A DNA stretch of 64,000 nt, taken from Comamonadaceae bacterium. Its GTDB lineage: Bacteria; Pseudomonadota; Gammaproteobacteria; Burkholderiales; Burkholderiaceae_C. How positions within the stretch are numbered: position 1 is the stretch's first letter; each line of letters starts with the position of its first letter. The DNA lies in NCBI GenBank assembly GCA_027485235.1, contig JAIXRJ010000044.1:1-64000 (forward strand), written 5' to 3'. Under the pieces are notes generated by a model. It made no database searches. It had not been told where the DNA came from and saw only the letters and a program-made list of their open reading frames with translations. The translations under genes were made by a program, and so were the position numbers. This document shows positions 35,114 to 51,739 of this stretch, piece by piece.

Positions 35114-35947
35114 TCAACGGGTGAGCCAACGCCGCGCCGCAAAGCTCAGGGCGTCCACACACGCCACCATCAACAACATGGCCGCCAAAATGGTGGCGGT
35201 CTTGTTCATGTGGAACAGGCCCATGTGAAAAGACAGCAATTGGCCCAGCCCACCCGCGCCCACCACACCCAACACGGCGGCGGCGCGGATGTTGTTTTCC
35301 CAGCGGTACAGCGTGTAACTCATGAGTTGCGGCAAGACTTGCGGCAAGGTGGCGTAAAAAAACACACGCAGCGGTCCCACACCTTGGGTGCGCAAAGCGT
35401 CGCCGGGGCCGGTGGGGATGTTCTCCATGGCCTCGGCAAACAGGCGGCCCAGCACACCACTGGTGTGCAGCGCCAGCGCCAAGGTGCCCGCCATGGGCCC
35501 GAGACCTGCCGAGATCAACAACAAGGCGGCCCACACCAACTCAGGAATGGCGCGCAGGGCATTGAGCAGCCAGCGCGTGGGGCTGCGCAGCCAGGCCGGA
35601 TCTTGGGCAGACAAGCGGCTGGCGGGCACGGCCAGCGCCAGGCCCAATACCGCCGCAATGGCCGTGCCCAACGCCGACATGGCCAGGGTTTCCCAAGCGG
35701 CCCAAGCCACCTTGTTCACAAACACGGGCGACAGATCGGGCGGGAAAAATTCGGCCACAAAGCGGCCCATGCTGCGCGCCGCTTCCAGGGACGCAAAAGC
35801 CGCCCAATCCAAGTCGAGCGAGACAAAGCTGGCCACCACCAACACCAACAGGGCGGCTGTGAACCAGCAGGCGCGGCAGCGTGCATCAAAGATCGGTGAC
35901 GGCAATTTGTACGGCGGGTTGGCCGCTTCGCGTGAAAAAGGCTTCAT
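35114..35947 (-). CDS. phnE: phosphonate-type ABC transporter permease PhnE (second copy)
   Basis: This 277-residue inner-membrane permease has five or six TM helices and the binding-protein-dependent transport motif (EAMENIPTGPGDALRTQG and GVVGAGGLGQLL). ATG 35947 overlaps the stop of the first permease gene by four bases (ATGA), so the two are translated together and probably form a heterodimer. The upstream open frame to 36124 lies inside the first permease gene and is not used. The system imports phosphonate, phosphite or phosphate ester. Confidence 0.9.
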   Translation of the reverse strand: MKPFSREAANPPYKLPSPIFDARCRACWFTAALLVLVVASFVSLDLDWAAFASLEAARSMGRFVAEFFPPDLSPVFVNKVAWAAWETLAMSALGTAIAAVLGLALAVPASRLSAQDPAWLRSPTRWLLNALRAIPELVWAALLLISAGLGPMAGTLALALHTSGVLGRLFAEAMENIPTGPGDALRTQGVGPLRVFFYATLPQVLPQLMSYTLYRWENNIRAAAVLGVVGAGGLGQLLSFHMGLFHMNKTATILAAMLLMVACVDALSFAARRWLTR

Positions 35948-36825
35948 GCCAAAGCCTTTCGCAGCCATGCACTCACGCGGTCGGCCAGCGCCACCAGCGC
36001 AATGAACACCAGCAGCAAAGTGGCCACTTCCCCGCCGTTGAACATCTTCATCGAGTTGTCCAACTGCTGGCCCAAACCGCCTGCGCCCACAAAGCCCAAC
36101 ACCACCGAAGAGCGGATGGCGCATTCCCAGCGGTAAACGGTGTACGACGCGAGCTCCGCCGCGTGGCTCGGCAGCAGCGCGTACACAAAAGCCTGCAGGC
36201 GGCCGCTGCCGTTGCGCATCAGGGTCTGGGTGGCGTGGCTCTCGCCGCTTTCCAAAATCTCGGCGTACACCTTGCCCAGCATGCCACCATAGGTCAGCGC
36301 AATGGCCAACACGCCCGCCGTAGGCCCCAAGCCCACCACGCGCACAAACACCAGCGCCCAGATCAATTCAGGAATGCTGCGCAGCACTATCAAAGTGGCC
36401 CGCACACACCAGCGCAGCAGGGCTGGCCAGCGGTCCATGCGGCCCGACAAGGCCGAGAGCGACAAGACCCGCGTGGCCAGCAAACTCAAAGGCACGGCCA
36501 GCACCAGCGCCAGCGTCACACCTGCAGTCGCCATGGCCACGGTGCGCCAGGTTTCGCGCACCACCATCTGCATGAATTCGGCGTTGTGCACCAGTGGCCA
36601 AAAGCTGCCGATAAAGTCTGCGGTGACTTTGCGGTTCTCGGGCTCCCAGAGCACCCACAAACGGAATGCGGTGGCCACACCCAGTGGCCACAGCAGCACC
36701 AGCGCCAAGCTGAGCCAAAACACGCGCGCGGCAAAAGCAGGGTCGCGCAGGGGTGCCGCCAAAGGGGGTCGCGCAGGCGGCAAACCTGCGGGGCGGGAGG
36801 CAGACGAATGGGCGGCGGCGGACAT
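35944..36825 (-). CDS. phnE: phosphonate-type ABC transporter permease PhnE (first copy)
   Basis: This 293-residue permease has a cytoplasmic Pro/Ala-rich start, about six TM helices, and the EAA-like loop ILESGESHATQTLMRNGSGRLQ followed by GFVGAGGLGQQLD. It resembles the adjacent second permease in layout. It lies 34 nt downstream of phnC. Duplicated PhnE genes next to phnC and phnD are common in phosphonate and phosphite uptake operons. Confidence 0.9.
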   Translation of the reverse strand: MSAAAHSSASRPAGLPPARPPLAAPLRDPAFAARVFWLSLALVLLWPLGVATAFRLWVLWEPENRKVTADFIGSFWPLVHNAEFMQMVVRETWRTVAMATAGVTLALVLAVPLSLLATRVLSLSALSGRMDRWPALLRWCVRATLIVLRSIPELIWALVFVRVVGLGPTAGVLAIALTYGGMLGKVYAEILESGESHATQTLMRNGSGRLQAFVYALLPSHAAELASYTVYRWECAIRSSVVLGFVGAGGLGQQLDNSMKMFNGGEVATLLLVFIALVALADRVSAWLRKALA

Positions 36826-36859: not shown

Positions 36860-37699
36860 TCAGCGGCAGTGCATCACCACGGGCGCGGGCCCCACAGGTG
36901 CAGCGTCGAGTAAGGCCACAGGCAAGTTCTCGCCACGCAGCTCGTGTTCATGCTGGTCGTACAAATGCGCCAGGCGCTCAGGGCTGACCTGTGCAGCGGG
37001 CAAGTCAAACACCAGCTGCCCATCGCGCAGGCCGATGATGCGCGGGAAATGCGCCAACGCCATGTCCACCTGGTGCAGCGTAGCGACCAGCGTCACTTGA
37101 CGCTCGGCCGCCAAGCTCACCAAAGCAGCCATGGCCATGCGGGCGCGCATCGGGTCGAGCGCTGACAGCGGCTCGTCGATCAGCCACAGGCTGGCCGGGG
37201 CCAACAGGGCGCGGGCCAGGCCCACGCGCTGGCGCTCACCACCCGAGAGGCGGTCGACGCGGTCAAACAATTTATCGCCCAAGTCAAAGTGCACCAGCGC
37301 TGCGTAAGCGGCCGGAATATCTGTCGGGTAAAACAGCGAACGCAAACTGGCCCAAAAGCCCATGCGGGGCAAGCGCCCCGCCAACACCGAGGTCACCACA
37401 CGTTGGCGCGGCGGCAGCGGCGGCACCTGCGGGGCCAGAAACAACTGGCCACGCCAACGGCGCAAGGCCCGTGCGGGCAAGGTCCAAGGGTTGACACCGG
37501 CCAAATGAAGTTGGCCTTGCGTGGGCGGCTGGGCACAGGCCAGCACTTGCAACAAGGTCGTCTTGCCTGCGCCAGAAGGGCCAATGATGGCCACCTGCTC
37601 GCCAGCGGCCAGGCGCAGGTTCAGCGCACGCAAAGCCGCCGGGGCACCGGGCAAGGCCGCCGGGTGTCGGGCCTCCAGACCCCATAGCTCGATGTTCAC
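36860..37699 (-). CDS. phnC: phosphonate-type ABC transporter ATP-binding protein PhnC
   Basis: This 279-residue ABC ATPase has Walker A GPSGAGKTT near residue 40, signature LSGGERQRVGLARALL, Walker B LWLIDEPLSALD and the switch His in ATLHQVD. The insertion FYPTDIPAAYAALVHFDL between Walker A and signature is typical of PhnC. It powers import of the PhnD ligand. The gene starts 18 nt after phnD. Confidence 0.9.
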   Translation of the reverse strand: MNIELWGLEARHPAALPGAPAALRALNLRLAAGEQVAIIGPSGAGKTTLLQVLACAQPPTQGQLHLAGVNPWTLPARALRRWRGQLFLAPQVPPLPPRQRVVTSVLAGRLPRMGFWASLRSLFYPTDIPAAYAALVHFDLGDKLFDRVDRLSGGERQRVGLARALLAPASLWLIDEPLSALDPMRARMAMAALVSLAAERQVTLVATLHQVDMALAHFPRIIGLRDGQLVFDLPAAQVSPERLAHLYDQHEHELRGENLPVALLDAAPVGPAPVVMHCR

Positions 37700-37717
37700 C
37701 GCGCTGCTGCCCAGGCT

Positions 37718-38593
37718 TTAGAGCAAGCCCGCGCTGCGTGCGGCCGACTCCAGGCCTTTGTAGTTCTCAGGCGTGGTGGGCACGTAGCGGGTGGCGCGGT
37801 TGAGCTTCAGGATCTCGGCATGCTCGGGGTTCGCGGGGTTCAGGGCCAACAAAGCGGCCTTGATTTTTTCACGCAGATCGGCGGGCATGTCGGCATGCAC
37901 CGACCAGTTGTAGTTGAAGTAAGGCGCGGTGGTGAAGAACACGTTCACGTCTTGCGTGTTGACCTTGTTTTCGGCCACGAACTTTTTCCAGACCGTGATG
38001 TCCAAGGCCGCAGCGTCGACCTTGCCGCTGACCACCGAGGCGATGGTGGCATCGTGCGCGCCGCTGTAGGCGATGCGCTTGAAGTCCTTTTCAGGATCGA
38101 TGCTCGCTTGCAGCAAAAAGCTGCGCGGCATCAGGTGGCCCGAGGTGCTGCTTTGTGAACCAAAAGAAACTTGCTTGCCCTTCATGTCGGCCAAGGTCTT
38201 GATGCCCGAGTTGGTCTTGGCGATGAAGACCGACTGGAACTTGGTGTCTTCTTCGCGCTGTGCCAAAGGCATGATCTTGCCGCCCGAGCGGATGCTGGCT
38301 TGCACAAAGGTGAAGCCACCGAACCAGACCACGTCGACCTTTTTGTTGACCAAGGACTCGACAGCAGCGGGGTAGTCGGTCACGGGGGTGAACTGCACCT
38401 TCATGCCCAGTTGCTTTTCCAGGTAATTGGCCAGCGGGGTGAATTTGCGCACCTGCTCAGTCGCCGCTTCTTCGGGGATGGTGGTCACGCGCAGGGTGGC
38501 TTGGGCGTGAGCGTTCGTTGCCAAAGTGGCCGACAAGGCCAGAAGACCGATGAAGGCACTGGACAGAATTTTGGATAAAAAAGCATTAGGCAT
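37718..38593 (-). CDS. phnD: phosphate/phosphite/phosphonate ABC transporter binding protein PhnD
   Basis: This 291-residue periplasmic binding protein has a signal peptide ending ATNAHAQA. Family signatures are TTIPEEAATEQVRKFTPLANYLEKQLG, VVWFGGFTFVQAS and GSQSSTSGHLMPRSFLL; the SxxSTSGHLMP loop binds the phosphonate or phosphite group. It is first in the phnDCEE operon and divergent from egtD. No C-P lyase, phosphonatase or phosphite dehydrogenase gene is in the window, so the fate of the imported compound is open. No clear Pho box was found in 38594-38755. Confidence 0.9.
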   Translation of the reverse strand: MPNAFLSKILSSAFIGLLALSATLATNAHAQATLRVTTIPEEAATEQVRKFTPLANYLEKQLGMKVQFTPVTDYPAAVESLVNKKVDVVWFGGFTFVQASIRSGGKIMPLAQREEDTKFQSVFIAKTNSGIKTLADMKGKQVSFGSQSSTSGHLMPRSFLLQASIDPEKDFKRIAYSGAHDATIASVVSGKVDAAALDITVWKKFVAENKVNTQDVNVFFTTAPYFNYNWSVHADMPADLREKIKAALLALNPANPEHAEILKLNRATRYVPTTPENYKGLESAARSAGLL

Positions 38594-38755: not shown

Positions 38756-39724
38756 ATGACCACGCCCCAATTCATCCAGCTGTACCAGCACAACGCCGCC
38801 GCCGTGGCCCAAGAACTCTTGCAAGGCTTGAGCGCCCCGCAGGCCTTCACTTCGCCCAAATACCTGTACGACGCGCTGGGCTCGCGCCTGTTTGAAGCCA
38901 TCACCGAGCTGCCCGAGTACGACCTGACGCGCACCGAGGCCCAATTGATGCAACTGCACAGCGCCAGCATGGCTGCTGAGCTGCCACGCGGCGCGTGCTG
39001 GATCGACCTGGGCGCAGGCAATTGCGAAAAAGCCGGACGCTTGCTCGGCCCCATGGGCGCAGGCCGCTATGTGGCGGTGGACATCTCGGTGGACTTTGTG
39101 CACCAGGCGCTGGATGTGCTGCAGCGCCAGCACCCGGGCTTGCCTATGGCGGGCTTGGGCGTGGACTTTTCGGGTGGCCTGCATCTGCCAGCCGCGCTGG
39201 CACTCGACCCAGCGCAGCCGCGTGTGCTGTTTTACCCGGGTTCGAGCATCGGTAATTTCACACCCGAACAAGCACTGGACTTTTTGCACAACCTGCACGC
39301 GGGCTGCGGTTCGGCGGTTGGCAGCGGCTTGCTGATCGGGGTGGATTTGCTGAAAGACCCGGCCGAACTCGAAGCCGCCTACGACGACGCGCTGGGCGTG
39401 ACAGCCGCTTTTGACCTGAATTTGCTGCTGCACATCAACCGCTTGGTGGGCAGCAACTTTGCAGTGCGCGACTGGCAACACTTATCACGCTTCAATGCGG
39501 CGCAGTCGCGTGTCGAGATGCACCTGCAAGCGCGCCACGCAGTGACGGTGCAGTGGCCTGGTGGGCAGCGACAGTTTGCAACCGGCGAAACCATCCACAC
39601 CGAAAATGCCTGCAAATGGACGGTGCCCGACTTTGCCGCTTTGCTGCGCGCAGCAGGCTTTGCCAAGACACAGGCTTGGACCGACCCTGCGCATCGATTT
39701 GCGGTCTTTTGGGCCACGGCCTGA
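38756..39724 (+). CDS. egtD: L-histidine N-alpha-methyltransferase EgtD
   Basis: This 322-residue SAM-dependent enzyme trimethylates histidine to hercynine, the precursor of ergothioneine and selenoneine. The family motifs are TSPKYLYDALGSRLFEAITELPEYDLTRTE, WIDLGAGNCEKA (SAM motif I), LFYPGSSIGNF and a C-terminal IHTENACKW segment. No EgtC or EgtE gene is seen. A senABC locus lies 7 kb downstream, so its hercynine probably feeds selenoneine synthesis and possibly ergothioneine. It is divergent from phnD. Confidence 0.94.
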   Translation: MTTPQFIQLYQHNAAAVAQELLQGLSAPQAFTSPKYLYDALGSRLFEAITELPEYDLTRTEAQLMQLHSASMAAELPRGACWIDLGAGNCEKAGRLLGPMGAGRYVAVDISVDFVHQALDVLQRQHPGLPMAGLGVDFSGGLHLPAALALDPAQPRVLFYPGSSIGNFTPEQALDFLHNLHAGCGSAVGSGLLIGVDLLKDPAELEAAYDDALGVTAAFDLNLLLHINRLVGSNFAVRDWQHLSRFNAAQSRVEMHLQARHAVTVQWPGGQRQFATGETIHTENACKWTVPDFAALLRAAGFAKTQAWTDPAHRFAVFWATA

Positions 39725-39822
39725 GCTTGTCGCCCATTTGATTGGTCGTCTGGACCGGCCTGCCCATAATGAATTCAGCCCGGCGCTCATGCTGTGCACA
39801 CATTCATCACCAGGAGACTTGC

Positions 39823-40590
39823 ATGTTGAACGATCTGAAAGACAAAGTTGTTCTGATCACCGGCTCCAGCACCGGCATCGGTGCTGCGGCGGCCGTGGCC
39901 TTTGGCAAGTTGGGAGCGCGCGTGGCGGTGCACTACAACAGCAGCCAAGGGCCTGCCGAAGAAGTCCTGGGCCGCGTCAAGGCCACGGGTGCGCAGGCCA
40001 TTTTGCTGCAAGGCGATGTGCTCGAATCGGGGCAGTGCCAAGGGCTGGTGGATGAAACCGTCAAGGCCTTTGGCCGCATCGACATTCTGATCAACAACGC
40101 TGGTGCTTTGGTCCAACGGGTGCCGATTGAAGAGATCACCGATGAGTTGTTTGACAACGTGGTTCACCTGAACGTGCGCTCGGCGATGATGTGCACGGCC
40201 GCTGCGGTCAAGGCCATGCGCCAGCAAGGCCAAGGCGGTGTGGTGATCAACGTGACCTCGGTGGCGGCCCGTCATGGCGGCGGTGCAGGCGCCTCCCTGT
40301 ATGCCGGCTCCAAGGGTTTCGTGTCCACCATGACACGGGGGCTGGCCAAGGAGCTGGTCAAGGACAACATCCGCGTCAATGCCGTGGCGCCGGGCGTCAT
40401 CACCACCCCATTTCACGAACGTTTTTCAACCCCGCAAATGCTCGAAGGCTTCAAGGCCACGATTCCCATGAACCGATTGGGGACGGCCGAAGAATGTGCC
40501 GGTGCTTTTGTGTACCTGGCCTCAGAGGAGATGTCGGGCTACGTGACCGGCCAGATCATCGAGGTCAACGGCGGGCAGTACATGCCCTGA
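39823..40590 (+). CDS. SDR family oxidoreductase
   Basis: This 255-residue classical short-chain dehydrogenase has TGSSTGIG near residue 13, NNAG, the Ser in NVTSVAARHG and YxxxK as YAGSK. It ends with the usual VNGGQYMP. ATG 39823 has AGGAGACTTGC upstream; the frame is open back to 39742. It is convergent with the TauD-like dioxygenase and probably belongs to the same sugar-acid or hydroxy-acid catabolic island (39.8-46.5 kb). Confidence 0.88.
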   Translation: MLNDLKDKVVLITGSSTGIGAAAAVAFGKLGARVAVHYNSSQGPAEEVLGRVKATGAQAILLQGDVLESGQCQGLVDETVKAFGRIDILINNAGALVQRVPIEEITDELFDNVVHLNVRSAMMCTAAAVKAMRQQGQGGVVINVTSVAARHGGGAGASLYAGSKGFVSTMTRGLAKELVKDNIRVNAVAPGVITTPFHERFSTPQMLEGFKATIPMNRLGTAEECAGAFVYLASEEMSGYVTGQIIEVNGGQYMP

Positions 40591-40608
40591 AGCTCAATGA
40601 CTTGGTTC

Positions 40609-41457
40609 TCAATGCCCTTGGGGGTTGAGCACGGTCACGCGCCACAAGGTGCGTGGCCGGGTCAGGTCGATCAAGGGCGCGCTGTGCAGCAGCAAGGCGT
40701 TGTCCCAAATCATGACATCGCCGTTGTCGTAGTTGTTGGTGTAGCAGTATGTGTCCTGCGTGGCATGTGCCGCGAGTTCGCGCAACAAGCCCAGGGCCTC
40801 GTCATCGGGCATGCCTTCAATGCCAAATGAGCTGCCGCTGACCGCATACAGCGCAGGCTGCCCGGTGAAAGGGTGTGGCCTGACCAGCGGGTGACGCACC
40901 CAGCTGACCCTTTGGGCTTGCTCAGCGTTGAGCACAGACGCCACGCTTCGGGACTGTTTGTCCAGGTCATCGCGGTTACCATAGTGGTGCTTGACCACCA
41001 GGCCTTTGATTTTTTCTTTCATGCCGGGTGGCAAGTCGGCATAGGCCTTGGCCTGGTTGGCAAAGGTGGTGCCGTTGGGTGCGGGCGGCACGTCTTGCGC
41101 ATGCAAGATGGTGCAGCGCGCCACGTCGTCCAGATAAGAATAATCGGTGTGGAAATAAGTGCCGGCATCCACCAGTCCCGTGGGCTTGCCGTCCTTGAAC
41201 ACATTCGAGAGGATCAGGATGTTGGCATCTTCGGGGTGGTGAAAAGTGTCAATGACATGGGGCGATGGCCTGCCCCACTGTTTGGCAAATGTCACCATCT
41301 CGGCGGGCGTCAAGGACTGGTTTTTCAGCACGATGAAGCCGTGACGATGCAAGGCATCGGCCAACCACTGCTTTTGGCCTGCATCCAAGGGCTCGGACAG
41401 ATCCAGCCCGTCAATGCGGGCTCCCAACACATCACTGAGTGGAACAATGCTGGCCAT
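40609..41457 (-). CDS. TauD/TfdA family Fe(II)/2-oxoglutarate dioxygenase
   Basis: This 282-residue dioxygenase uses Fe(II) and 2-oxoglutarate to hydroxylate its substrate, often releasing a leaving group such as sulfite. The facial triad is visible: HxD in YFHTDYSYLDD near residue 102 and the distal His in LLLHSAPL. The 2OG-binding Arg lies in RTLWRVTV. The specific substrate (taurine, an aryl ether or another) is not indicated. It is 4 nt downstream of the TRAP large permease gene, so transport and oxidation are linked. Confidence 0.88.
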   Translation of the reverse strand: MASIVPLSDVLGARIDGLDLSEPLDAGQKQWLADALHRHGFIVLKNQSLTPAEMVTFAKQWGRPSPHVIDTFHHPEDANILILSNVFKDGKPTGLVDAGTYFHTDYSYLDDVARCTILHAQDVPPAPNGTTFANQAKAYADLPPGMKEKIKGLVVKHHYGNRDDLDKQSRSVASVLNAEQAQRVSWVRHPLVRPHPFTGQPALYAVSGSSFGIEGMPDDEALGLLRELAAHATQDTYCYTNNYDNGDVMIWDNALLLHSAPLIDLTRPRTLWRVTVLNPQGH

Positions 41458-41461
41458 GTCT

Positions 41462-42781
41462 TTACCTGATCATGTCGGGTGCAAAGATGGTTGGTAAAAA
41501 CAGCACGATGTCCGGGAACACGATGATGGCGAGCAAGACCACCAACATCGGGATCAACATGATCATGGTGTCTTTGATGGCAAAACTCAGCGGCACTTTG
41601 GCCACCGCACACGAGATCATCAAACACATGCCATACGGTGGCGTGATCAAGCCGAAGGCCAAGGACACAATGCCCACAATCGCAAAGTGGACGGGGTGCA
41701 TGCCCACCGACTCGGCCAAAGGTTGCAAGGTCGTGCCCACAATGATGATGGCCGGAATGGCATCGAGGAAACAGCCGACGACCAGGAAAGCGCCAGCGAT
41801 CAGCAAGCCCACACCTATGACATCCAGACCCCAGCCCGTCACATTGGCCAGCAGCGCTTTGGGGATTTGGTAGTAAGCCAGCAACCAACCAAACACCGAT
41901 GCCGTGCCAACGCAAAACAGCGCCACAGCGCTGAGCTTGCCGGTGTCCACAATCGCCGCGATGAAACTCTTCCAGTTCATTTCACGGTAAAACAACATGG
42001 ACAACACCGCGGCATACAGCACCGCGACAGCGGCGGATTCGGTGGCGGTGAACAGGCCCAGCAGGATGCCGCCCACAATGATCACGGGCGTCATCATGGC
42101 CGGAATCGACACCAGGGCCGCTTTGTAAATTTCAGTCAGATTGGCGCGGGGATAGACCGGGTAGTTGCGCTTTTTGGCATAGGCATGCACCGTGGCCATC
42201 TGAGCCAGGCCAATCAGCAAACCCGGCACGATACCGGCCAGGTACATGGCGCCGATCGATGTCGAGATCACGCCGCCCCAGACCACCATCAGGATCGAAG
42301 GGGGGATGATCACTGCCAACACCGCAGACACCGCGGTGATGGCAATAGAGAAGGACAAGTCATAGCCTTCTTTGACCTGGGCTTCAATGAAGAGCTTGCC
42401 TTGGCTGGCGGCATCGGCGGTCGATGAGCCAGAAATACCGGCAAAAAAGACCGACAAGATCACGTTGATCTGTGCCAAGCCGCCCGGGAAATGGCCCACC
42501 AGCGCGCGCGAAAGTCGCATCAGCCGATCGGTGATGCCGCCGCCATTCATCAAGTTGGCCGTCAGCAAGAAAAACGGCACTGCCAGCAAAATGAAGGAGT
42601 TGTAAGCCTTGAACATTTCATTGAACAAGACCATGGGCGAGAGCCTTGGTTCAAAAATGAGCACCGGCAAAGACGCCAGCCCCAGAGCGAACGCCACGGG
42701 CACACGAATCGCCAGCAACAAAAAGAAACCCCCGAAGAGGACCAACGCCGCCATCGAAGGCGAGAGAAGAGATGAGCTCAA
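41462..42781 (-). CDS. TRAP transporter large permease (DctM-like)
   Basis: This 439-residue integral membrane protein has 12 hydrophobic segments of the TRAP DctM family. The family motif ISGSSTADAASQGKLFI lies near residue 113 and a GLITPPYGMCLMI segment near the end. It is the sodium-driven channel subunit for an organic acid. It overlaps the DctQ-like gene by four bases (ATGA). Confidence 0.92.
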   Translation of the reverse strand: MSSSLLSPSMAALVLFGGFFLLLAIRVPVAFALGLASLPVLIFEPRLSPMVLFNEMFKAYNSFILLAVPFFLLTANLMNGGGITDRLMRLSRALVGHFPGGLAQINVILSVFFAGISGSSTADAASQGKLFIEAQVKEGYDLSFSIAITAVSAVLAVIIPPSILMVVWGGVISTSIGAMYLAGIVPGLLIGLAQMATVHAYAKKRNYPVYPRANLTEIYKAALVSIPAMMTPVIIVGGILLGLFTATESAAVAVLYAAVLSMLFYREMNWKSFIAAIVDTGKLSAVALFCVGTASVFGWLLAYYQIPKALLANVTGWGLDVIGVGLLIAGAFLVVGCFLDAIPAIIIVGTTLQPLAESVGMHPVHFAIVGIVSLAFGLITPPYGMCLMISCAVAKVPLSFAIKDTMIMLIPMLVVLLAIIVFPDIVLFLPTIFAPDMIR

Positions 42782-43269
42782 ATCACGGACCCCTGGTTAG
42801 AACTTTCACTGATGTCACTGGCGTTGAGCATGTGGTCCAGTAAAAAAATGATCCAAAAAAATCCGGCCAGGGGCCACGCCATAAAAATCCACCACATCGG
42901 CATCTCAGCCAACTCGGACGTCTGGTTCCAGCCGAACTGGGTGAACTCAATCCCCCAATACAGGACCACCGCAGAAAAAACGAGCATGGCGGTCTGGCTC
43001 ATGCGCAGCAGGACGTGGGTCGCACGGGGGGACAACTCAGGCAAAAAGTCGACATCAAAGTGAAGCCGCTCACGCACACCCAAAGTTGCACCCAACAAGA
43101 TGAGCCAAACAAAGAAAAACCGGCTCATTTCCTCTGTCCACATGTAGCTGGGGATCAGATGGGTGTAACGGGAGAAAATTTGCAGGCTGACGGGAACAAT
43201 CAAAAGCAGCACCGTCGCGATCAACAAAAAATGAAGCAGGCGATCGATCAAGGCAAGAATTTTTTGCAT
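42778..43269 (-). CDS. TRAP transporter small permease (DctQ-like)
   Basis: This 163-residue, four-TM protein belongs to the DctQ family. Typical features are an early FSRYTHLIPSYMWTEEMSRFFFVWLILLGATLG and a charged segment RERLHFDVDFLPE. It partners the large permease, whose start overlaps its stop. The gene lies 65 nt downstream of the binding-protein gene. Confidence 0.9.
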   Translation of the reverse strand: MQKILALIDRLLHFLLIATVLLLIVPVSLQIFSRYTHLIPSYMWTEEMSRFFFVWLILLGATLGVRERLHFDVDFLPELSPRATHVLLRMSQTAMLVFSAVVLYWGIEFTQFGWNQTSELAEMPMWWIFMAWPLAGFFWIIFLLDHMLNASDISESSNQGSVI

Positions 43270-43334
43270 TTACAGTCTCGTCAATCCGAAGATACGAGCA
43301 GCATCACGCTGCCCGCTGTTTGCTGCTGATCGGT

Positions 43335-44324
43335 TTATTTCAAGCTGTTGATCTTGGCGTAAATCGCATCGGCACCCACTTCTTTGGCATAAGCCGCCAT
43401 CACAGGGTCCACCAGCTTTTGCATTTCAGCGCGTTGTGCGAAAGGCACTTGCTTGAGCTTGCCTTCCTTGGCGTACTTGTCAAGTTTGGCTTGGTCTTCG
43501 GACGACTCGATCTGACGACCAAAAGCACCCGCCTCCTTGCCTGCCTTCACGATCGCTGCTTGCAGGTCTGCAGGGAGTCTTTTCAGCGTTTTCACAGAAA
43601 AACACAAAGGGCGGATGGTGATGGCATGGCGTGTCATCAAAATACTGGGCGCTACTTCGTAAAACTTCATCGCCTCTACCCCGGCAGCTTCGTTTTCACC
43701 CGCATTGATCACACCGTTTTGAATGGCGTTGTACACCTCGTTGTAAGCGATGACCGTGGGGGACATGCCCACTGCGCTGAAGGTGCGGCTCCAGATGGGG
43801 GCCCCTTGCACGCGCACCTTCAGATTTTTCAGGTCGGCCAGATTGCCCGCGGCTTTATTTGAAAAAATATTTCGCACACCGCCGCCGGCATAACCGATCA
43901 ATTTGACTTCGGCTTTTTGCTCCACTTCGTCGGCAATCGGCTTGAGGATGTCTTGGTCCAACACCTTGTTCCAGTGGTTCAGGTCACTGAACAAAAACGG
44001 TGCGTCAATGAAGGGCGCCGCTTTGGAGAAGGTGGACATGTGGGCGGGCGACACAATCGCAAAGTCCACCGCCTTGCCTTGGTTCATGTAGGCAAAGTAA
44101 TCTTTCTCCAAGCCCAGCTCACTGTTTTTGTGCAGCACGAAGTTGATGGGTTTGCCATAGTATTTTTTCACCAGCTCTTCGAACTTGACCATGGTTTTGG
44201 TGAACGCATGGTCATCGCCAAACTGTGAGGCGCCGTGCAGTGTGATGGCCGCTTGCTGTGCATGCGCACTCAAGGCCATGATGGAAGAGAGCACCACGCC
44301 CAGCAAAGGTTTCAAAACTTTCAT
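43335..44324 (-). CDS. TRAP transporter substrate-binding protein (DctP-like)
   Basis: This 329-residue periplasmic binding protein has a signal peptide (LLGVVLSSIMALSAHAQQ). It contains the TRAP-specific anion-binding region KVRVQGAPIWSRTFSAVGMSP followed by YNEVYNAIQNGVINAGENE. The conserved Arg (KVRV) binds a carboxylate, so the substrate should be an organic acid. An AGGAGAC precedes the ATG. The 262-nt region 44325-44586 between this gene and the divergent dehydrogenase must hold both promoters, but I could not assign clear boxes. Confidence 0.92.
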   Translation of the reverse strand: MKVLKPLLGVVLSSIMALSAHAQQAAITLHGASQFGDDHAFTKTMVKFEELVKKYYGKPINFVLHKNSELGLEKDYFAYMNQGKAVDFAIVSPAHMSTFSKAAPFIDAPFLFSDLNHWNKVLDQDILKPIADEVEQKAEVKLIGYAGGGVRNIFSNKAAGNLADLKNLKVRVQGAPIWSRTFSAVGMSPTVIAYNEVYNAIQNGVINAGENEAAGVEAMKFYEVAPSILMTRHAITIRPLCFSVKTLKRLPADLQAAIVKAGKEAGAFGRQIESSEDQAKLDKYAKEGKLKQVPFAQRAEMQKLVDPVMAAYAKEVGADAIYAKINSLK

Positions 44325-44586
44325 GTCTATGTCTCCTGTAGTGATCGGAACAACAACTTCAATGTGTTGCTGATTTCACTTTAGGCCAAGGCACCCTTAG
44401 CAGTGCTGGGGAAAACCATGAGTCATCTGCCCAGCTGTCTCCAACATGTCCCCCATCGCTGGTCCCTGCCCCGCCGAAAGTGATAACTTGAACCCCACCA
44501 TGCGCACGGGCATGCTGGCCCCTGCGTGCGCCACTCGGCGGGGTCTTGGCGTGGGTATTTTTTGATTCATCACATGAAAGAAACGC

Positions 44587-45483
44587 ATGAAACACATCGG
44601 TTTTATTGGTGCCTCGGGCCTGATGGGTCACGGCATCGCCAAAAATTTGTTGGCCAAAGGTTTTCAGGTTTCCCTGACGGCGCATTCACGCCGGGAGCCC
44701 TTGCAAGACCTGTTGGCCGCAGGGGCCAAATTGGCAGAACGCCATGCCGATCTGTCGGCCTGTGATGCGGTCATCATTTGCGTGACCGGCTCGCCTCAGG
44801 TCGAGGCCGCTTTGGAAGGACCCACCGGCTTATTGAGTCAGGCCCGTGCGGGCTTGGTGGTCATCGACGCGTCCACCAGCGAGCCCGATTCCACACGCCG
44901 CTTGGCAGCCCGCTGCCAAGCTGTGGGCATGACCCTGGTCGACGCCCCCCTGGCGCGCACCCCCGTGGAGGCCGAAGCCGGCAAACTCAACACCATGGTG
45001 GGCGCATCGCCTGAGGTCTTTGCCAGCCTGGAGCCGGTGTTCAAGGCCTATTGCGAAAACATTTTCCACGTCGGTGAGATGGGCGCAGCCCATGTCATCA
45101 AACTGCTGAACAACTTTCTCGGCCAAGCCATCACGACGGCGGCGGCCGAAGCTTTTGCGGTGGGCGCCAAAGCGGGCATCGATGTCGGCCAACTGGTGCG
45201 CGTGGTGTCGGCGGGTGCGGTCAATTCGGGTTTGTTTCAGGCCATGGCCAAAACGCTGGACGGTGATTACACCGGTCTGAAGTTCGAGCTGAACAACGCA
45301 TCGAAAGACTTGCGTTACTACGTGCACCTGACCGAGAGCGTGAAAGCGCCTTCTCTGGTGGGCACCAGCGTGCACCAGAGCCTGGTGACCGCCTGCGCTT
45401 TGGGTTACGGCCAGGAGTTGGTGCCCTCTTTGGTCAAGGCGCAAGCGCAAATCAACCAGGTCAAAATCGAGCAAGGTCGCTGA
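44587..45483 (+). CDS. NAD(P)-dependent beta-hydroxyacid dehydrogenase (HIBADH-like)
   Basis: This 298-residue enzyme has the N-terminal Rossmann motif GFIGASGLMGHGIAKNLLAKG, the substrate region DAPLARTPVEAEAGKLNTMVG, and the catalytic Lys in HVIKLLNNFLGQA. It oxidises a beta-hydroxy acid such as 3-hydroxyisobutyrate or tartronate; which one is not evident. It is divergent from the TRAP operon and its stop overlaps the next start (TGATG). Confidence 0.9.
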   Translation: MKHIGFIGASGLMGHGIAKNLLAKGFQVSLTAHSRREPLQDLLAAGAKLAERHADLSACDAVIICVTGSPQVEAALEGPTGLLSQARAGLVVIDASTSEPDSTRRLAARCQAVGMTLVDAPLARTPVEAEAGKLNTMVGASPEVFASLEPVFKAYCENIFHVGEMGAAHVIKLLNNFLGQAITTAAAEAFAVGAKAGIDVGQLVRVVSAGAVNSGLFQAMAKTLDGDYTGLKFELNNASKDLRYYVHLTESVKAPSLVGTSVHQSLVTACALGYGQELVPSLVKAQAQINQVKIEQGR

Positions 45484-46496
45484 TGACGCTCCGCCTGGGC
45501 ATGGCCTTGGTGGGCCTGGGTGCGGCCACCCAGCCGCATCTTCGCAGCCTGCAAGACCTGAACGAGCGCATTGACCTGCGTTATGCCGTCACGCGTCAGC
45601 CCCACCCTGATCGGCTCAGGCCTTACACCGGCCCTGTTCGCTTGGTCAGTGCGCTGGACGAGGCCCTGGCCGACCCTCAGGTCCAAGCAGTCATTGTGGC
45701 CACCCCTCCGTCCACCCACCTGGACATCTGTCAGCGCTGCTTCGCCGCGGGCAAACATGTGTTGCTCGAAAAGCCGCTGGAGCTGAATCTGGAAAGGTCG
45801 AAACAACTGGTCGTGCTGGCCCGGCAAAGCGGTCTGCATTTGGGTGTGGTCTTGCAACACCGGTTTCGCGAAGCATCCCTGGTTTTGCAGGATGTGCTGG
45901 ACACCGGACGCCTGGGCGACATACAGGCCGCCTCGGTGCGCGTGCCGTGGTGGCGATCGCAAGCCTATTACAAAGAACTGGGCCGGGGCACCTTGGCGCG
46001 GGATGGTGGTGGTGTGTTGCTGACCCAAGCGATTCACACCCTGAACCTGTTTCAGGCGCTGGTGGGGGTGACATCGGTCACAGCCTCGGTGGTACGGCAA
46101 ACCCGTTTGCACCAGATGGAAACCGAAGACCATGTCAGTGCACTGTTGGTGTTGGGGAATGGCGCCCCCGGTGACCTCATGGCGACCACCGCCATGTACC
46201 CTGGGTTTCCAGAAACGATCGAGGTGATTGGCACTTTGGGCAGCGCGCGGCTCAGCGGCGCCGATCTGCAAGTGCAGTTTCTGCAAGGTGAACCTTTGAC
46301 TGTGCGCAGTGAAGGGGGCACCGGCAGCGGGGCCAACATGATGGATTTTTCACACGAACCGCACCGCGATCTGATCACCGATTTCATCGATGCCATCGCC
46401 CACAATCGTGCGCCTCGGGTCACCGGTGAAGATGCGCTTAAAACCCACATGCTGATCGACGAACTGCTGCGCAAGGGGCAAATGTCAACCGCCTGA
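45483..46496 (+). CDS. Gfo/Idh/MocA family oxidoreductase
   Basis: This 337-residue protein has an N-terminal Rossmann fold (MALVGLGAATQPHLRSLQDL) and the family motif GKHVLLEKPLELN near residue 92. A C-terminal substrate domain follows. Family members oxidise sugars or sugar derivatives with NAD(P). Translational coupling (TGATG) to the HIBADH-like gene suggests consecutive steps. Its stop lies 4 nt from the convergent senA stop. Confidence 0.88.
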   Translation: MTLRLGMALVGLGAATQPHLRSLQDLNERIDLRYAVTRQPHPDRLRPYTGPVRLVSALDEALADPQVQAVIVATPPSTHLDICQRCFAAGKHVLLEKPLELNLERSKQLVVLARQSGLHLGVVLQHRFREASLVLQDVLDTGRLGDIQAASVRVPWWRSQAYYKELGRGTLARDGGGVLLTQAIHTLNLFQALVGVTSVTASVVRQTRLHQMETEDHVSALLVLGNGAPGDLMATTAMYPGFPETIEVIGTLGSARLSGADLQVQFLQGEPLTVRSEGGTGSGANMMDFSHEPHRDLITDFIDAIAHNRAPRVTGEDALKTHMLIDELLRKGQMSTA

Positions 46497-46500
46497 AACC

Positions 46501-47709
46501 TCACATTTTGACCGAGCGGAACCCGGCAAAGATGTCGCGCCGCTCGGGCACAAAGAAGTTGCGATAACGCACATCCACCACCTGTGCCGAAGTGGCCGCA
46601 CAGGCCCCGCGCAGCACACGGTGGTCGTGCCACCAGGGCTCAGAATAGTCACGGTAAGGGTGGACCACAAAACCGGGGTAAGGCGCGAAGTCGCTGGCGG
46701 TCCATTCCCACACCTGGCCCCAAGCAAAGTCGGGGGAGTGCGCCGCACACGCCCATTCGGCTTCGGTGGGCAAACGCCGGCCTGCCCATGTGCACCAGGC
46801 CTGGGCATCGGCGGCGCTGACATGCACCACGGGGGCGTTCAGATCCATGGCCTGCCACTGGCCCAGACGCCGCACTTGCCAATCGCCTTGCGCGCCACGC
46901 ACATGCGGCGGCAAGGGGTATCCCGTGGCCTGCAAAAAGGGCAGGTACTGCGCCCAAGTCACGGCAGCCGCATCGATTTCGAAAGCCGACAGCTGCACGG
47001 GGTGGGCCTGGCATTCGTTGTCAAAGAAAAAGCCGGGTCCACTGTGGCCCAAGGTCCAGACTTGGGCGGGGATGTGCAACGCGCTGGCTGAAACAGGCCC
47101 TGTGCCCGCCTGCGCATGCCCCACGCACAAGGCTTCGGGTAAAGCCAGGCCCAGGCCTTGCGCCATGTACACCGCAGCTTCGTTGTGCATGGCCTCGTGT
47201 TGCAAGACCAGGCGCCAAAAGTACAGGGCCTCGTCGCTGGCATTGGGCGCGCCACGCAAATGGGCCAGGCTTTGCGCCAGCACATCGGCCAAGTAGCCTT
47301 GGGTGTGCTGCAAGTCGGGCAAGGGCAGCGACCAGCGGCGGTCGTGCGCCACCTCGCTGGAGTTGTACAGCGCGTCGGCACGGGGCATCAGCGAAGGCCC
47401 AAAGCCATCGCCCGAGGAGGCACTGCGGGTGCCTTCGCAGCGCTGTCGGTTGCGCACCGTCCACCACTCCTGAAACCAAGCGATGTGACCCCACTCCCAC
47501 AGCGGCGGGTTCATGCCGGGCAGGGGCGGCACAGACAGGTCTGGCAAGGCCGCTTGCCACGCCTGGATCAAACCCAGCGTGCGATGGCGCGTTTCGGACA
47601 GGGCTTTTGCCAAGGTCTCGGCGTTGGCCGTGCGCCAGGGATTGGTCACGGGTCCATTCAAGCGGTGGGCGCGTGTCTGCTGAGGCGGGGCTGGGGGACT
47701 GCGGCTCAT
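46501..47709 (-). CDS. senA: selenoneine synthase SenA (EgtB homologue)
   Basis: This 402-residue protein has the EgtB plan: an N-terminal DinB-like four-helix domain and a C-terminal FGE-sulfatase/C-lectin domain (AGRRLPTEAEWACAAHS and VLRGACAATS). The iron-binding histidines are visible as GHIAWF (His75) and HxxxHxE in LQHEAMHNEA (His171, His175). EgtB joins a thiol to hercynine; the paralogue SenA joins a selenosugar. Divergence from senB-senC, with start codons 13 bp apart, favours SenA. ATG 47709 was chosen; GTG 47649 is an alternative that would leave room for promoters. EgtB remains possible. Confidence 0.78.
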   Translation of the reverse strand: MSRSPPAPPQQTRAHRLNGPVTNPWRTANAETLAKALSETRHRTLGLIQAWQAALPDLSVPPLPGMNPPLWEWGHIAWFQEWWTVRNRQRCEGTRSASSGDGFGPSLMPRADALYNSSEVAHDRRWSLPLPDLQHTQGYLADVLAQSLAHLRGAPNASDEALYFWRLVLQHEAMHNEAAVYMAQGLGLALPEALCVGHAQAGTGPVSASALHIPAQVWTLGHSGPGFFFDNECQAHPVQLSAFEIDAAAVTWAQYLPFLQATGYPLPPHVRGAQGDWQVRRLGQWQAMDLNAPVVHVSAADAQAWCTWAGRRLPTEAEWACAAHSPDFAWGQVWEWTASDFAPYPGFVVHPYRDYSEPWWHDHRVLRGACAATSAQVVDVRYRNFFVPERRDIFAGFRSVKM

Positions 47710-47710
47710 G

Positions 47711-47716
47711 TATAAA
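47711..47716 (+). promoter_or_regulatory. possible -10 element of senB (leaderless start)
   Basis: TATAAA at 47711-47716, preceded by TG, sits seven nt before the senB ATG at 47723. Transcription would start on or next to the ATG, producing a leaderless mRNA. I see no good -35 box at 17 nt, so an activator or extended -10 may be used. This is tentative. Confidence 0.3.
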
Positions 47717-47722
47717 CTGCCC

Positions 47723-48703
47723 ATGCAAAAACTTCGTGTGGTCATTGTCAGCCCCGCCCTGGCCGACGCCAACAACGGGAACTGGCAAACGGCGCGCCGT
47801 TGGCAACAGCTGCTGAGTCCTCATTTTGCCTGCATCGTGCGGCAATGGCCCGACGCTGAAGGTTTGACCTCGCCTGACGATGTGGTGCTGGCCTTGCACG
47901 CGCGCCGATCTGCCGACTCGGTGCAAGCCTGGCACAACACGCACGGCCAGCGGGGCTTGGGCGTGGTGCTCACGGGTACCGACCTGTACCGCGACATTGG
48001 CCACGACCCTCTGGCGCAGCGCTCCTTGGCCTTGGCGCATTCGCTGGTGGTGTTGCATGGTCTGGGGGTGCGAAGCCTGCCGCTTGAACACCAGGCCAAG
48101 GCCCGCGTCATCTTGCAGTCCACCGGCACGCGTCAGACTTTGCCCAAAACTTTTCGTCATCTGCGCGCCGTGATGGTGGGCCATTTGCGCGAAGAAAAAG
48201 ACCCGCTGACCCTGATGGCTGCTGCGCGCCTCTTGCCGCCAGACGCTGGCGTGCTGATCGACCACATCGGTGCAGCGCTCGATCCGGCGCTGGGCCAGGC
48301 CGCACAAGACACACAAGCACAGTGCCCGCATTACCGATGGCTGGGGGCTGTGCCCCACGCGCAAACCCTGCAGCGCATCCAGCGCGCGCACCTGCTGGTG
48401 CATTGCAGCCGCATGGAAGGCGGCGCACATGTGCTGATGGAGGCGATTTGCAGCGGCACACCCGTGCTGGCCTCGCGCATCGACGGCAATGTGGGCCTGT
48501 TGGGCGAGGATTACGCCGGCCTGTTTGCGCCGGGCAAGGCCCAAGCCTTGGCCGATTTGCTGCTGGCCTGCCGATCGCCACAATCCGGTCATACCCTGGT
48601 GGCACACTTGCAGCGTCAGTGCGCTTTGCGCGCACCTTTGTTTGAACCGAGCGCCGAACGCGCTGCCTTGCACCGCTGGGTGCAAGACCTTTGGACCCTT
48701 TGA
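47723..48703 (+). CDS. senB: selenosugar synthase SenB (GT-B glycosyltransferase fold)
   Basis: This 326-residue protein belongs to the small group of glycosyltransferase-like enzymes found beside SelD. Characteristic features are VSPALADANNGNWQTARRW at the N-terminus, GTDLYRD in the middle, and a C-terminal nucleotide-sugar site (RMEGGAHVLMEAICSGTPVLASRI). SenB joins selenophosphate and a UDP-sugar to form a selenosugar. ATG 47723 starts the fold; an ATG at 47708 would overlap senA. The stop is directly followed by the senC ATG with no gap. Position between senA and senC strongly supports the call. Confidence 0.82.
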   Translation: MQKLRVVIVSPALADANNGNWQTARRWQQLLSPHFACIVRQWPDAEGLTSPDDVVLALHARRSADSVQAWHNTHGQRGLGVVLTGTDLYRDIGHDPLAQRSLALAHSLVVLHGLGVRSLPLEHQAKARVILQSTGTRQTLPKTFRHLRAVMVGHLREEKDPLTLMAAARLLPPDAGVLIDHIGAALDPALGQAAQDTQAQCPHYRWLGAVPHAQTLQRIQRAHLLVHCSRMEGGAHVLMEAICSGTPVLASRIDGNVGLLGEDYAGLFAPGKAQALADLLLACRSPQSGHTLVAHLQRQCALRAPLFEPSAERAALHRWVQDLWTL

Positions 48704-51058
48704 ATGCAATCTTCCCATCAACCCGTGCTGCGCGACTTGGTCCTGGTCGGCGGCGGCCACAGCCATGTGGGCGTGCTGCGCATGTTCGCCATGAAGCCCG
48801 AGCCCGGTGTGCGCATCACCGTGATCTGCACCGACATCGACACGCCTTATTCAGGCATGTTGCCCGGCTACATTGCGGGCCACTACAGCTTTGACGAGGT
48901 GCACATCGACCTGGGGCGACTGTGTGCTTTTGCGGGCGCACGTCTGTACCACGATGCGGTGGTGGGCATCGACCGACAAAACCAAAAAGTCATTTGCAAA
49001 AACCGCCCGCCTGTGGCCTACGACCTGTTGTCGGTCAACATCGGTTCGACCCCGCAGGTGCAAAACGTGGCAGGTGCTCAAGCCTTGGCGGTGCCGGTCA
49101 AACCCATTGCCCAGTTCAACCAACGCTGGCTGACCCTGCTGGACAAAGCGCGACAGTGGCCTGGCCACCGGGGCCCAATGACCATTGCCGTCGTGGGTGG
49201 GGGAGCGGGCGGCGTGGAGCTGGTGCTGTCCATGCAACACCGATTGCGCAATGAACTCAAAGCCATGGGGCGCAGCCCCGAAGAGCTGAGGTTTGTGTTG
49301 CTGACCTCTGGCGATTCGGTCTTGCCCACCCACAACCCGGGTGTGCGTCAACGCTTTGCCCAAGTGCTGCAAGAGCGCAATGTCGAGGTACAAGCCCATG
49401 CCGAGGTGGTGCAGGTCTCGGCAGGCTGCCTGCACACGCGCGACGGCCGCACCTTCGATGCCGACGAGACCCTGTGGGTGACACAAGCCGGTGGCCCGGC
49501 TTGGCTGCAGAGCACAGGCCTGGCACTCGACGACAAAGCTTTCATTTTGGTGAATCCCCAGTTGCAAAGCCTGAACGACCCGCTGGTTTTTGCGGCGGGC
49601 GATATCGCTTCGTTTGCCGAGCGGCCATTGGAAAAAGCGGGTGTATTTGCGGTGCGCATGGGCAAGCCGCTGGCCGAGAATTTGCGCCGCAGCTTGCGCG
49701 GCCAAAAATTACTGGCCTTCAAGCCACAACGGCATTGGTTGGCCCTCATTTCGACCGGCAACCGTTACGCCGTGGGTTCTCGCGGGTCTTGGGGCTTTGG
49801 CGGCGCTTGGGTCTGGCATTGGAAAAACCGGATTGACCGCGCATTCATGCGCCGCTTCACGGAACTTCCGGACATGGATGCACACGCGCCGGGCACCCGC
49901 TTGCACACCGCCCTGGAGGCGATGGGCCAACTGCTGAGAAACATTCAAGTCCAAGGCCAAGCGCCCACCTCGCGTTTGAGCTTGAGCGCTGAAGAGTCCT
50001 TACAAGCCATCTCGGCCATCGCCATGCGCTGCGGCGGCTGCGGTGCAAAAGTGGGCGCCAATGTGTTGTCACGGGCCTTGGGGCAATTGCAACCCGTCGA
50101 ACGCGCTGATGTGTTGATCGGACTGCATTCGCCCGACGATGCGGCGGTGGTTCGGGTGCCGCCCGGCATGGCCGTGGTGCAGACCGTCGACTTTTTCCGG
50201 GCCTTCATGGACGACCCTTATTTGTTCGGCAAAGTGGCCGCCAACCACGCGCTGGGCGATATTTTTGCCATGGGGGCCGAGCCCCAAACGGCCACCGCCG
50301 TGGTCACCGTACCCCCAGGGCTGGAGCGCAAAGTCGAAGACCTGTTGACCCAAATGATGGGCGGGGCGATCGAGGTGCTGAACGCTGCAGGCTGCGCCTT
50401 GGTGGGTGGCCACACCGGTGAGGGCGCGGAACTCGCCTTGGGCTTTGCCATCAACGGTTTGATCGACGAAAAAATGGACGGCGTCATGCGCAAGGGCGGC
50501 ATGCAAGCGGGGGATGTGCTGCTGCTGACCAAGCCCATGGGCACCGGCACCTTGTTCGCCGCGCACGCACGCCATGCGGCCAAGGGCCGCTGGATCGCTG
50601 CGGCCTTGCAGTCGATGGTGCAGTCCAACCAGACAGGGGCCAAAATTTTGCACAGCCACGGGGCCACCGCCTGCACCGACCTGACCGGCTTCGGCCTGCT
50701 GGGCCACCTGGTGGAGATGACACGGCCATCGGGTGTGGACGCCGAACTGACCATGAGCACCCTGCCTCTGCTGGACGGCGCAGTGGACTGCGTCAAGGCG
50801 GGCATTGTGAGCTCTTTGCAACCGGCCAATGTGCGCCTGCGCCGCGCCCTGCGCAACGCCGATGAATTCGTGGGCGACCCCCGCTATCCCTTGTTGTTTG
50901 ACCCGCAAACCGCAGGCGGCCTGCTGGCCAGCGTGCCCGCAACGCAAGCTGCGGCTTGTGTGCAGGCCCTGAAAGCGGCAGGCTATGCGCACACCGCCAT
51001 CATTGGCCGCATCACCGCGCAAGGCGATGCCATTGAGCCTGTGTTGCTCAAAACCTGA
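48704..51058 (+). CDS. senC: SenC: selenophosphate synthase with N-terminal FAD oxidoreductase domain
   Basis: This 784-residue protein is a natural fusion. Residues 1 to about 400 form an NDH-2-like pyridine-nucleotide/FAD oxidoreductase (LVLVGGGHSHVGVLRMFAM, VVGGGAGGVELV, FAAGDIASF). Residues about 435-784 are a SelD domain. It contains CGGCGAK, with Cys446 and Lys449 matching the catalytic Cys17/Lys20 of E. coli SelD, and DDAAVV, ANHALGDIFAMG and GGHTGEG. It makes selenophosphate from selenide and ATP; the fused domain may handle selenium redox. The catalytic residue is Cys (TGC), not selenocysteine. selA, selB and selC are not seen here. Confidence 0.85.
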   Translation: MQSSHQPVLRDLVLVGGGHSHVGVLRMFAMKPEPGVRITVICTDIDTPYSGMLPGYIAGHYSFDEVHIDLGRLCAFAGARLYHDAVVGIDRQNQKVICKNRPPVAYDLLSVNIGSTPQVQNVAGAQALAVPVKPIAQFNQRWLTLLDKARQWPGHRGPMTIAVVGGGAGGVELVLSMQHRLRNELKAMGRSPEELRFVLLTSGDSVLPTHNPGVRQRFAQVLQERNVEVQAHAEVVQVSAGCLHTRDGRTFDADETLWVTQAGGPAWLQSTGLALDDKAFILVNPQLQSLNDPLVFAAGDIASFAERPLEKAGVFAVRMGKPLAENLRRSLRGQKLLAFKPQRHWLALISTGNRYAVGSRGSWGFGGAWVWHWKNRIDRAFMRRFTELPDMDAHAPGTRLHTALEAMGQLLRNIQVQGQAPTSRLSLSAEESLQAISAIAMRCGGCGAKVGANVLSRALGQLQPVERADVLIGLHSPDDAAVVRVPPGMAVVQTVDFFRAFMDDPYLFGKVAANHALGDIFAMGAEPQTATAVVTVPPGLERKVEDLLTQMMGGAIEVLNAAGCALVGGHTGEGAELALGFAINGLIDEKMDGVMRKGGMQAGDVLLLTKPMGTGTLFAAHARHAAKGRWIAAALQSMVQSNQTGAKILHSHGATACTDLTGFGLLGHLVEMTRPSGVDAELTMSTLPLLDGAVDCVKAGIVSSLQPANVRLRRALRNADEFVGDPRYPLLFDPQTAGGLLASVPATQAAACVQALKAAGYAHTAIIGRITAQGDAIEPVLLKT

Positions 51059-51070: not shown

Positions 51071-51739
51071 ATGCCCGCTGAACACACCACACTGAATGCC
51101 GACCTGACCCAGCGCTGCGTCGTGCACAGCCACGCCCTCGATTGGGTGGACTCGCCCGCCTCGGGCGTGTCGCGCCGCATGCTCGAGCGCGACGGCGGCG
51201 AAGTGGCAAGGGCCACGTCCATCGTGCGCTATGCGCCCGGCTCGGCCTTTGCCCGCCACACACACGGCGGAGGCGAAGAAATTTGGGTGCTCGAAGGCAC
51301 GCTGCTCGACGAACACGGCGTTTATGGCCCCGGCACCTACATCCAAAACCCGGTGGGCAGCGACCACACGCCCTCTTCCCCCGAGGGCTGCACCCTGTTT
51401 GTAAAGCTGCGCCATCTGGATGCACGCGACAAGGAACGCGTGGTCATCGACACACACCGCAGTGCGTGGCGTCAGGGCATGGTGGAGGGCCTCAAGGTCT
51501 TGCCGCTCCACACTTTCGAGACGCAAAACACCGCCTTGGTGCGCTGGGCCCCGCAAACGTTTTTCAACCCGCACCGGCATTGGTGTGGCGAAGAAATTTT
51601 GGTGCTCGAAGGCGTGTTCTCGGACGAGCACGGTGACTACCCGGCGGGCAGCTGGCTGCGCAGCCCGCACATGAGCCAACACCAGCCGTTCAGCCGAGAG
51701 GGTTGTTTGATTTTGGTGAAGACGGGGCATCTGACATGA
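51071..51739 (+). CDS. ChrR-like bicupin protein downstream of senC
   Basis: This 222-residue protein consists of two ChrR-type cupin repeats. Each has an HxH motif and a matching barrel core: FARHTHGGGEEIWVLEGTLLD near residue 63 and FNPHRHWCGEEILVLEG near residue 162. The internal duplication is clear. Such cupins occur as metal-binding domains of anti-sigma factors (ChrR), but the zinc-binding anti-sigma N-terminal domain is absent. It starts 12 nt after senC, so it is likely part of the sen operon, and overlaps the next gene by four bases. Its function is unknown. Confidence 0.82.
   Translation: MPAEHTTLNADLTQRCVVHSHALDWVDSPASGVSRRMLERDGGEVARATSIVRYAPGSAFARHTHGGGEEIWVLEGTLLDEHGVYGPGTYIQNPVGSDHTPSSPEGCTLFVKLRHLDARDKERVVIDTHRSAWRQGMVEGLKVLPLHTFETQNTALVRWAPQTFFNPHRHWCGEEILVLEGVFSDEHGDYPAGSWLRSPHMSQHQPFSREGCLILVKTGHLT

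Follow-up and report, generated by a model that had tools for sequence, protein, structure and literature searches.

A probable selenoneine biosynthesis locus and the neighbouring PhnCDE-type importer in a Limnohabitans-like Comamonadaceae genome

We analysed a stretch of 64,000 nucleotides (the window; positions 1 to 64,000 of contig JAIXRJ010000044.1, assembly GCA_027485235.1) from a Comamonadaceae bacterium, in which three open frames, at 46501-47775 (minus strand), 47708-48703 (plus strand) and 48704-51058 (plus strand), form a predicted locus for the biosynthesis of selenoneine, a selenium-containing antioxidant. The genome, 3.19 Mb in 50 contigs and 95.85% complete, has the window as its contig 11. 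The host is a Limnohabitans-like, freshwater member of the Comamonadaceae; by SenB identity, the nearest named sen loci are those of an uncultured Burkholderiales bacterium (90%), Limnohabitans sp. Rim8 (82%) and Limnohabitans sp. T6-20 (79%). The frames lie where a preliminary description of this DNA had put them, with a homologue of EgtB on the minus strand divergent from a glycosyltransferase and an oxidoreductase-SelD fusion:

46501..47775, minus strand: SenA, predicted selenoneine synthase (NF041186, 464 bits; tree; PDB matches; His 97/193/197)
47711..47716, plus strand: TATAAA, a -10-like element with its end 6 nt upstream of the likely senB ATG
47723..48703 (frame opens at 47708), plus strand: SenB, predicted selenosugar synthase (TIGR04348, 417 bits; PDB 8jjq/8fbx; active-site residues)
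48704..51058, plus strand: SenC, flavin adenine dinucleotide (FAD)/NAD(P) oxidoreductase fused to SelD (TIGR03169, 503 bits; TIGR00476, 295 bits)

We put the probability that 46501-51058 holds senA, senB and senC, and hence a selenoneine biosynthesis locus, at about 0.92, an identification well beyond chance because each of the three enzymes exceeds a curated NCBIfam cut-off. The SenA model has a cut-off of 420 bits, which the window protein passes, and its closest solved structures are SenA proteins (PDB 8k5i/8ryz, 391 bits). The preliminary description had read the trio as the selenoneine enzymes and had looked to phylogeny for the placement of the EgtB homologue; the reading holds, solved SenA and SenB proteins being the closest structures for the first two enzymes, and the homologue falls in the SenA clade and not in that of EgtB. 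In the tree, made by a quick method from 92 of the 141 rows collected (including 15 of the 29 rows over the EgtB cut-off), 44 of the 48 SenB-linked rows fall, together with the window, on the SenA side, which has 62 rows in all; the EgtB side has 30, including all 15 over-cut-off EgtB rows entered, and support is 100 on both sides. The four SenB-linked rows that group with EgtB come from loci that each also carry a SenA. At 23 diagnostic columns, which were defined with the window left out, the window protein has the SenA residue throughout and the EgtB residue at none. SenA is a non-haem iron enzyme related in sequence to EgtB, and three histidines common to both, which we take from EgtB structures to be the iron ligands, are retained in the window (H97, H193 and H197). 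Its frame opens at a TTG (47775) and overlaps senB; the true start is more likely ATG 47709 or GTG 47649. In four other genomes (G141, G228, G280 and G389; loci and genomes are cited by our own L and G numbers) SenA-like genes of 360-411 bits lie within about 1 kb of a SenB over cut-off, and the curated SenA cut-off may therefore miss true SenA proteins.

The second protein passes the cut-off of the SenB model (417 bits against 300) and contains the NNGNW motif after which the preliminary description had typed the glycosyltransferase; both of its closest solved relatives, PDB 8jjq and 8fbx, are SenB. The available part of PMC10891094 gives mutagenesis or structural support for eleven residues of the Variovorax paradoxus enzyme (N20, T23, H58, R61, T83, T85, R155, K158, E231, H235 and E239), and in our alignments all eleven are kept in the window, as N25, T28, H64, R67, T89, T91, R161, K164, E237, H241 and E245. 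The SenB residues for selenophosphate use, on which the preliminary description had made its assignment depend, are thus retained, K164 and E237 included. Translation of SenB more likely begins at ATG 47723, because many homologues begin there. Since the TATAAA element sits 6 nt upstream of this likely start, it suggests that the senB transcript is leaderless or nearly so; elements of this type and spacing precede 21 of the senB starts compared, 98 with that of the window, where shuffles, which ignore relatedness, lead one to expect 0.2-0.4; at least two of the rows (L023 and L111) are identical over the region compared.

The senC ATG follows the senB stop codon immediately, so that the two genes abut without a gap, as had been described. 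The oxidoreductase half of SenC scores 503 bits with TIGR03169 (Nterm_to_SelD; cut-off 310) and the SelD half 295 bits with TIGR00476 (cut-off 125). With two further SelD models (221 against 299 and 120 against 291) and with one named 'fusion_not_SelD' (471 against 700) the protein stays under the cut-off, and among solved structures a SelD matches it best (164 bits). Cys446 and Lys449 of the SelD half, which we presume from E. coli SelD to be catalytic, are invariant in all 33 fused SenC proteins, window included. For comparison we used 80 named sen loci, the best of 576 contig-scan matches and so the nearest relatives rather than a random draw. Two types of SenC, fused and SelD-only, occur among them; a match to the fused SenC of the window reaches at least 370 bits in 30 loci, is lower in 36 and is missing in 14, counts in which some loci end at contig ends. 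In L109 (13334-14023) and L083 (13342-14031) a gene that by eye encodes a TVP38/DedA-like membrane protein lies directly 3' of the fused senC. A ChrR-like cupin gene at 51071-51739 in the window, 12 bp after senC, was considered as a member of the cluster and rejected, as it has matches in only two of the 80 loci (L045 and L047), both partial and more than 2 kb from senC.

SenABC chemistry was established in Variovorax paradoxus (PMC9814287), and the pathway is treated further in the available parts of PMC10891094, PMC10702425 and PMC10903977. From family membership and conserved residues we would expect the same chemistry here. The SelD half of SenC would turn selenide and ATP into selenophosphate, with its flavin/NAD(P) half probably supplying selenide or keeping it reduced; SenB would exchange phosphate for a uridine diphosphate (UDP)-sugar to give a selenosugar; EgtD would methylate histidine to hercynine; and SenA, by its predicted function, would join selenosugar and hercynine, selenoxide breakdown then giving selenoneine. 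The window cluster belongs to the same families as that of V. paradoxus, SenA and SenB passing their curated cut-offs and all 11 of the SenB residues checked being kept; the window's own sen genes have as neighbours egtD and an ATP-binding cassette (ABC) importer recognised by TIGR04553. These two, left of the trio, and a SelU/MnmH gene elsewhere in the genome go beyond the preliminary description:

38756..39724, plus strand: EgtD, histidine N-alpha-methyltransferase, for hercynine (TIGR03438, 336 bits)
37718..38593, minus strand: PhnD-like substrate-binding protein; the importer probably takes up a selenium oxyanion (TIGR04553, 354 bits; context)
36860..37699, minus strand: PhnC-like ATPase (best model TIGR02315, 188 bits, under the cut-off of 266)
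35944..36825, minus strand: PhnE-like permease (TIGR01097, 200 bits, under the cut-off of 216.7)
35114..36124, minus strand: second PhnE-like permease, start uncertain, frame overlapping its neighbour (TIGR01097, 260 bits, cut-off 216.7)

EgtD passes its cut-off of 290.9 bits. The importer genes, in the order PhnD-C-E-E (35114-38593), are divergent from egtD, with 162 bp between. The PhnD-like protein passes the cut-off (250 bits) of TIGR04553, 'putative selenate ABC transporter substrate-binding protein', a name that is itself an NCBI prediction (kind: hypoth_equivalog). That such proteins carry selenium is NCBI's proposal; what we add is the recurrent linkage to selenoneine genes. Of the 80 named loci, 38 have the importer no more than 10 kb from senB (PhnD of at least 300 bits in 36, PhnC alone in two), and it is present in 19 of the 36 with full flanks; PhnD and EgtD are divergent and less than 500 bp apart in 22 of the 27 loci with both matches. 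A search for perfect inverted repeats and shared 7-mers in 23 intergenic regions, those of the window and the 22 loci, showed no operator common to the importer and egtD. Among 399 genomes of the order, TIGR04553 occurs in 92, SenB in 116 and both in 50; we treat Fisher tests on such co-occurrence as tallies rather than probabilities, since the genomes are related and the tests ignore shared ancestry.

The nearest solved relatives of the window PhnD are PtxB and phosphonate-/phosphite-type PhnD proteins, among them a Prochlorococcus PhnD deposited as phosphonate-binding. Phosphite-ligand residues of PhnD1 (PDB 5lq5) are listed in the available part of PMC5700983, and further background on PhnD1 is given in that of PMC8786288. 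We compared the pocket in 58 sequences over 250 bits, three under that score having been dropped. The tyrosine, the Ser-Thr-Ser, the histidine and the capping tyrosine of the phosphite pocket are kept in all 58, and the phenylalanine position varies. At the positions of PhnD1 D13, N176 and D205, 37 sequences have D-N-D, two D-S-D and 19 E-D-N. The last form a single clade, window included, with three coupled changes in pocket and cap; the window protein has most of the PhnD1 pocket residues and differs at these three. By these residues the pocket belongs to a binder of small oxyanions, without pointing to one anion.

We hypothesize, tentatively and with confidence somewhat short of even, that the window holds an uptake-to-product cassette, in which a phosphite-type PhnCDE importer, re-tuned to selenite or selenate, stands beside hercynine synthesis and SenABC, and that, in the clade to which the window belongs, a single event altered three coupled residues of the importer's pocket and transcription of senB starts at a conserved leaderless promoter. 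Several points weigh against our reading of the locus, importer included. In the window, egtD lies 6.8 kb to the left of senA. Of the 50 genomes with both TIGR04553 and SenB, only 14 have the two within 20 kb of each other on a single contig, and SenB over cut-off is absent from 42 of the 92 genomes with TIGR04553. We inspected importer loci from 20 of these 42 genomes, up to about 8 kb on each side (two, L183 and L192, end at contig ends), and 16 of them had neither SelD, SenB nor EgtD in the stretch taken. The window's pocket differs little in its residues from that of phosphite-binding PhnD1 and would be compatible with phosphite uptake. Finally, neither a preference of SenA for the selenosugar nor an exclusive use of hercynine by SenA is readable from the protein sequences.

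The alternative that survives best, which we consider unlikely yet serious, is that the importer carries phosphite or phosphonate and is unrelated to selenium. The solved relatives and the conserved pocket just described favour it, as does the lack of a nearby SelD in 16 of the 20 SenB-less loci. Against it stands, besides the recurrent linkage to sen genes, the SelD found alongside the importer in the other four of these loci, three of which also carry SelU, both confirmed by curated models; these four importers share the D-N-D set of phosphite-binding PhnD1. SelD is also present in 86 of the 92 importer genomes (among the matches listed, read by eye from best E-values) against 199 of the 307 others, counts that are not independent, the genomes being related. 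Genomes with EgtB show no excess of the importer (9 of 38; it is found in 32 of the 150 genomes G000-G149). With the absence of EgtD from the 20 SenB-less loci over the stretches taken, this also disfavours a role of the importer in hercynine or ergothioneine uptake. Subject to the relatedness of the genomes and to the 16 loci that show none of these genes, the context of the importer points to selenium and away from hercynine, and the importer would probably take up selenite or selenate.

If the selenium cassette is real, there would be selenium importers among the proteins at present annotated as phosphite- or phosphonate-binding PhnD. To our knowledge, specific selenium import by bacteria is poorly settled, and a dedicated importer beside a selenium-only biosynthetic cluster would make the question directly testable. 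The trio itself is a further example of a known pathway; the importer association is the new element and the part of the locus most worth testing. In the literature searched, to which the founding 2022 selenoneine paper did not belong, we found no link between the importer and selenoneine, no paper on selenoneine with phosphonate and ABC transporter, and none on Limnohabitans with selenoneine. YedE is put forward as a candidate transporter in a survey of selenium genes from 2015 (PMC5322559), the available text of which contains neither 'ABC transporter' nor 'phosphonate'.

The preliminary description had held that selA, selB and selC are missing and that selenium would go into a small molecule rather than selenocysteine. 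A search of the genome, of which about 4% may be missing, bore out the first statement: there was no match to SelA, no SelB over cut-off (best 112 bits against 242) and no tRNA-Sec over the gathering score (best 43.7 against 47), the two best tRNA-Sec-like matches being tRNA-Ser, so that the selenocysteine pathway was not found over cut-off. The second statement stands as regards selenocysteine and is too narrow otherwise, for a SelU/MnmH gene on another contig (TIGR03167, 352.8 bits against a cut-off of 219.75) points to tRNA as well. tRNA selenouridine is likely a second selenium sink; because no SelD other than SenC passes the cut-off in this genome and SelU/MnmH is present, selenium probably also enters tRNA, with SenC supplying SelU/MnmH. 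These same two facts would fit an account in which tRNA selenouridine takes most of the selenium and the sen genes play a minor part or are silent. We regard this as improbable, since the SenA and SenB frames are intact and their active sites conserved, which long disuse would have eroded, and since senC directly follows senB. No EgtB (TIGR03440) over cut-off was found in the genome and, with no selenocysteine machinery and one SelD over cut-off, hercynine looks dedicated to the selenium compound. What the analysis confirms is a predicted selenoneine capacity in a freshwater, Limnohabitans-like genome of this gene content.

Two further alternatives concern SenA. A related seleno-metabolite such as ovoselenol, made by an OvsA-type enzyme of the same superfamily and likewise of selenium chemistry, is very improbable: the ovoselenol selenoxide synthase OvsA (PDB 8ux5) is the next best solved match, but at 165 bits against the 391 of SenA, and EgtD, the source of the SenA substrate hercynine, is close by. 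Least probable of all is a true EgtB in an ergothioneine locus with SenB and SenC as unrelated neighbours, for although EgtD is near and the kinship of SenA and EgtB gives 226 bits to the EgtB model, that score is under the cut-off of 360 where the SenA cut-off is passed, the protein lies in the SenA clade without an EgtB residue at any diagnostic column, and its gene is directly linked to those of SenB and SenC.

Across named genomes the layout egtD> <senA senB> senC> is recurrent, and EgtD and SenA lie within 150 bp of each other in 29 of the 39 loci with both matches. The relative orientation of egtD and senA in the window is the same as in L048 and L050, where they are 14 and 35 bp apart. 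The intervening window block, 39742-46496, encodes a short-chain dehydrogenase/reductase (SDR), a TauD-like dioxygenase, a tripartite ATP-independent periplasmic (TRAP) transporter and two dehydrogenases; we rejected it as a set of pathway genes, as the whole block occurs in only L045 and L046 of the 80 loci and egtD and senA are adjacent in L048 and L050. The preliminary description had taken the presence of the pathway in this lineage as its observation. The pathway is present, but this is less remarkable than it appeared: SenB is over cut-off in the 116 genomes of the order already counted, in five of 12 genomes of the same family and in named Limnohabitans loci. The distribution is patchy, because G234, the only further genome sampled from this genus, has SelD and neither SenA, SenB nor TIGR04553 over cut-off.

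Other sen loci vary in arrangement. In eleven (L054, L056, L059, L063, L065, L067, L072, L085, L087, L088 and L119) senB lies within about 70 bp after egtD and SenA was not found in the stretch searched, some of these loci ending at contig ends; SenA then lies at another place, or its role falls to a different synthase. L083 (8686-10161, minus strand) and L109 (8683-9876, minus strand) have a gene that by eye is methyltransferase-like between egtD and senB, the place of senA elsewhere. In Limnohabitans sp. T6-20 (L047, 10001-13347) senB and senC are present, and senA and egtD were not found within 21 kb. Two inserts interrupt the sen genes of L048 (2550-17681): an efflux system lies between senA and senB, and genes that by eye look MTAP-, glycosyltransferase- and ArsS-like radical SAM-type lie between senB and senC. 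A divergent SenB-like family (f18), at 156-229 bits and so under the SenB cut-off of 300, occurs in G017, G064, G108, G147, G184, G215, G245, G275, G304, G333, G360 and G385; its gene lies less than 7 kb from a TIGR04553 gene in G275, G304, G333 and G360, and in G360 it adjoins a SenA-like gene of 397 bits.

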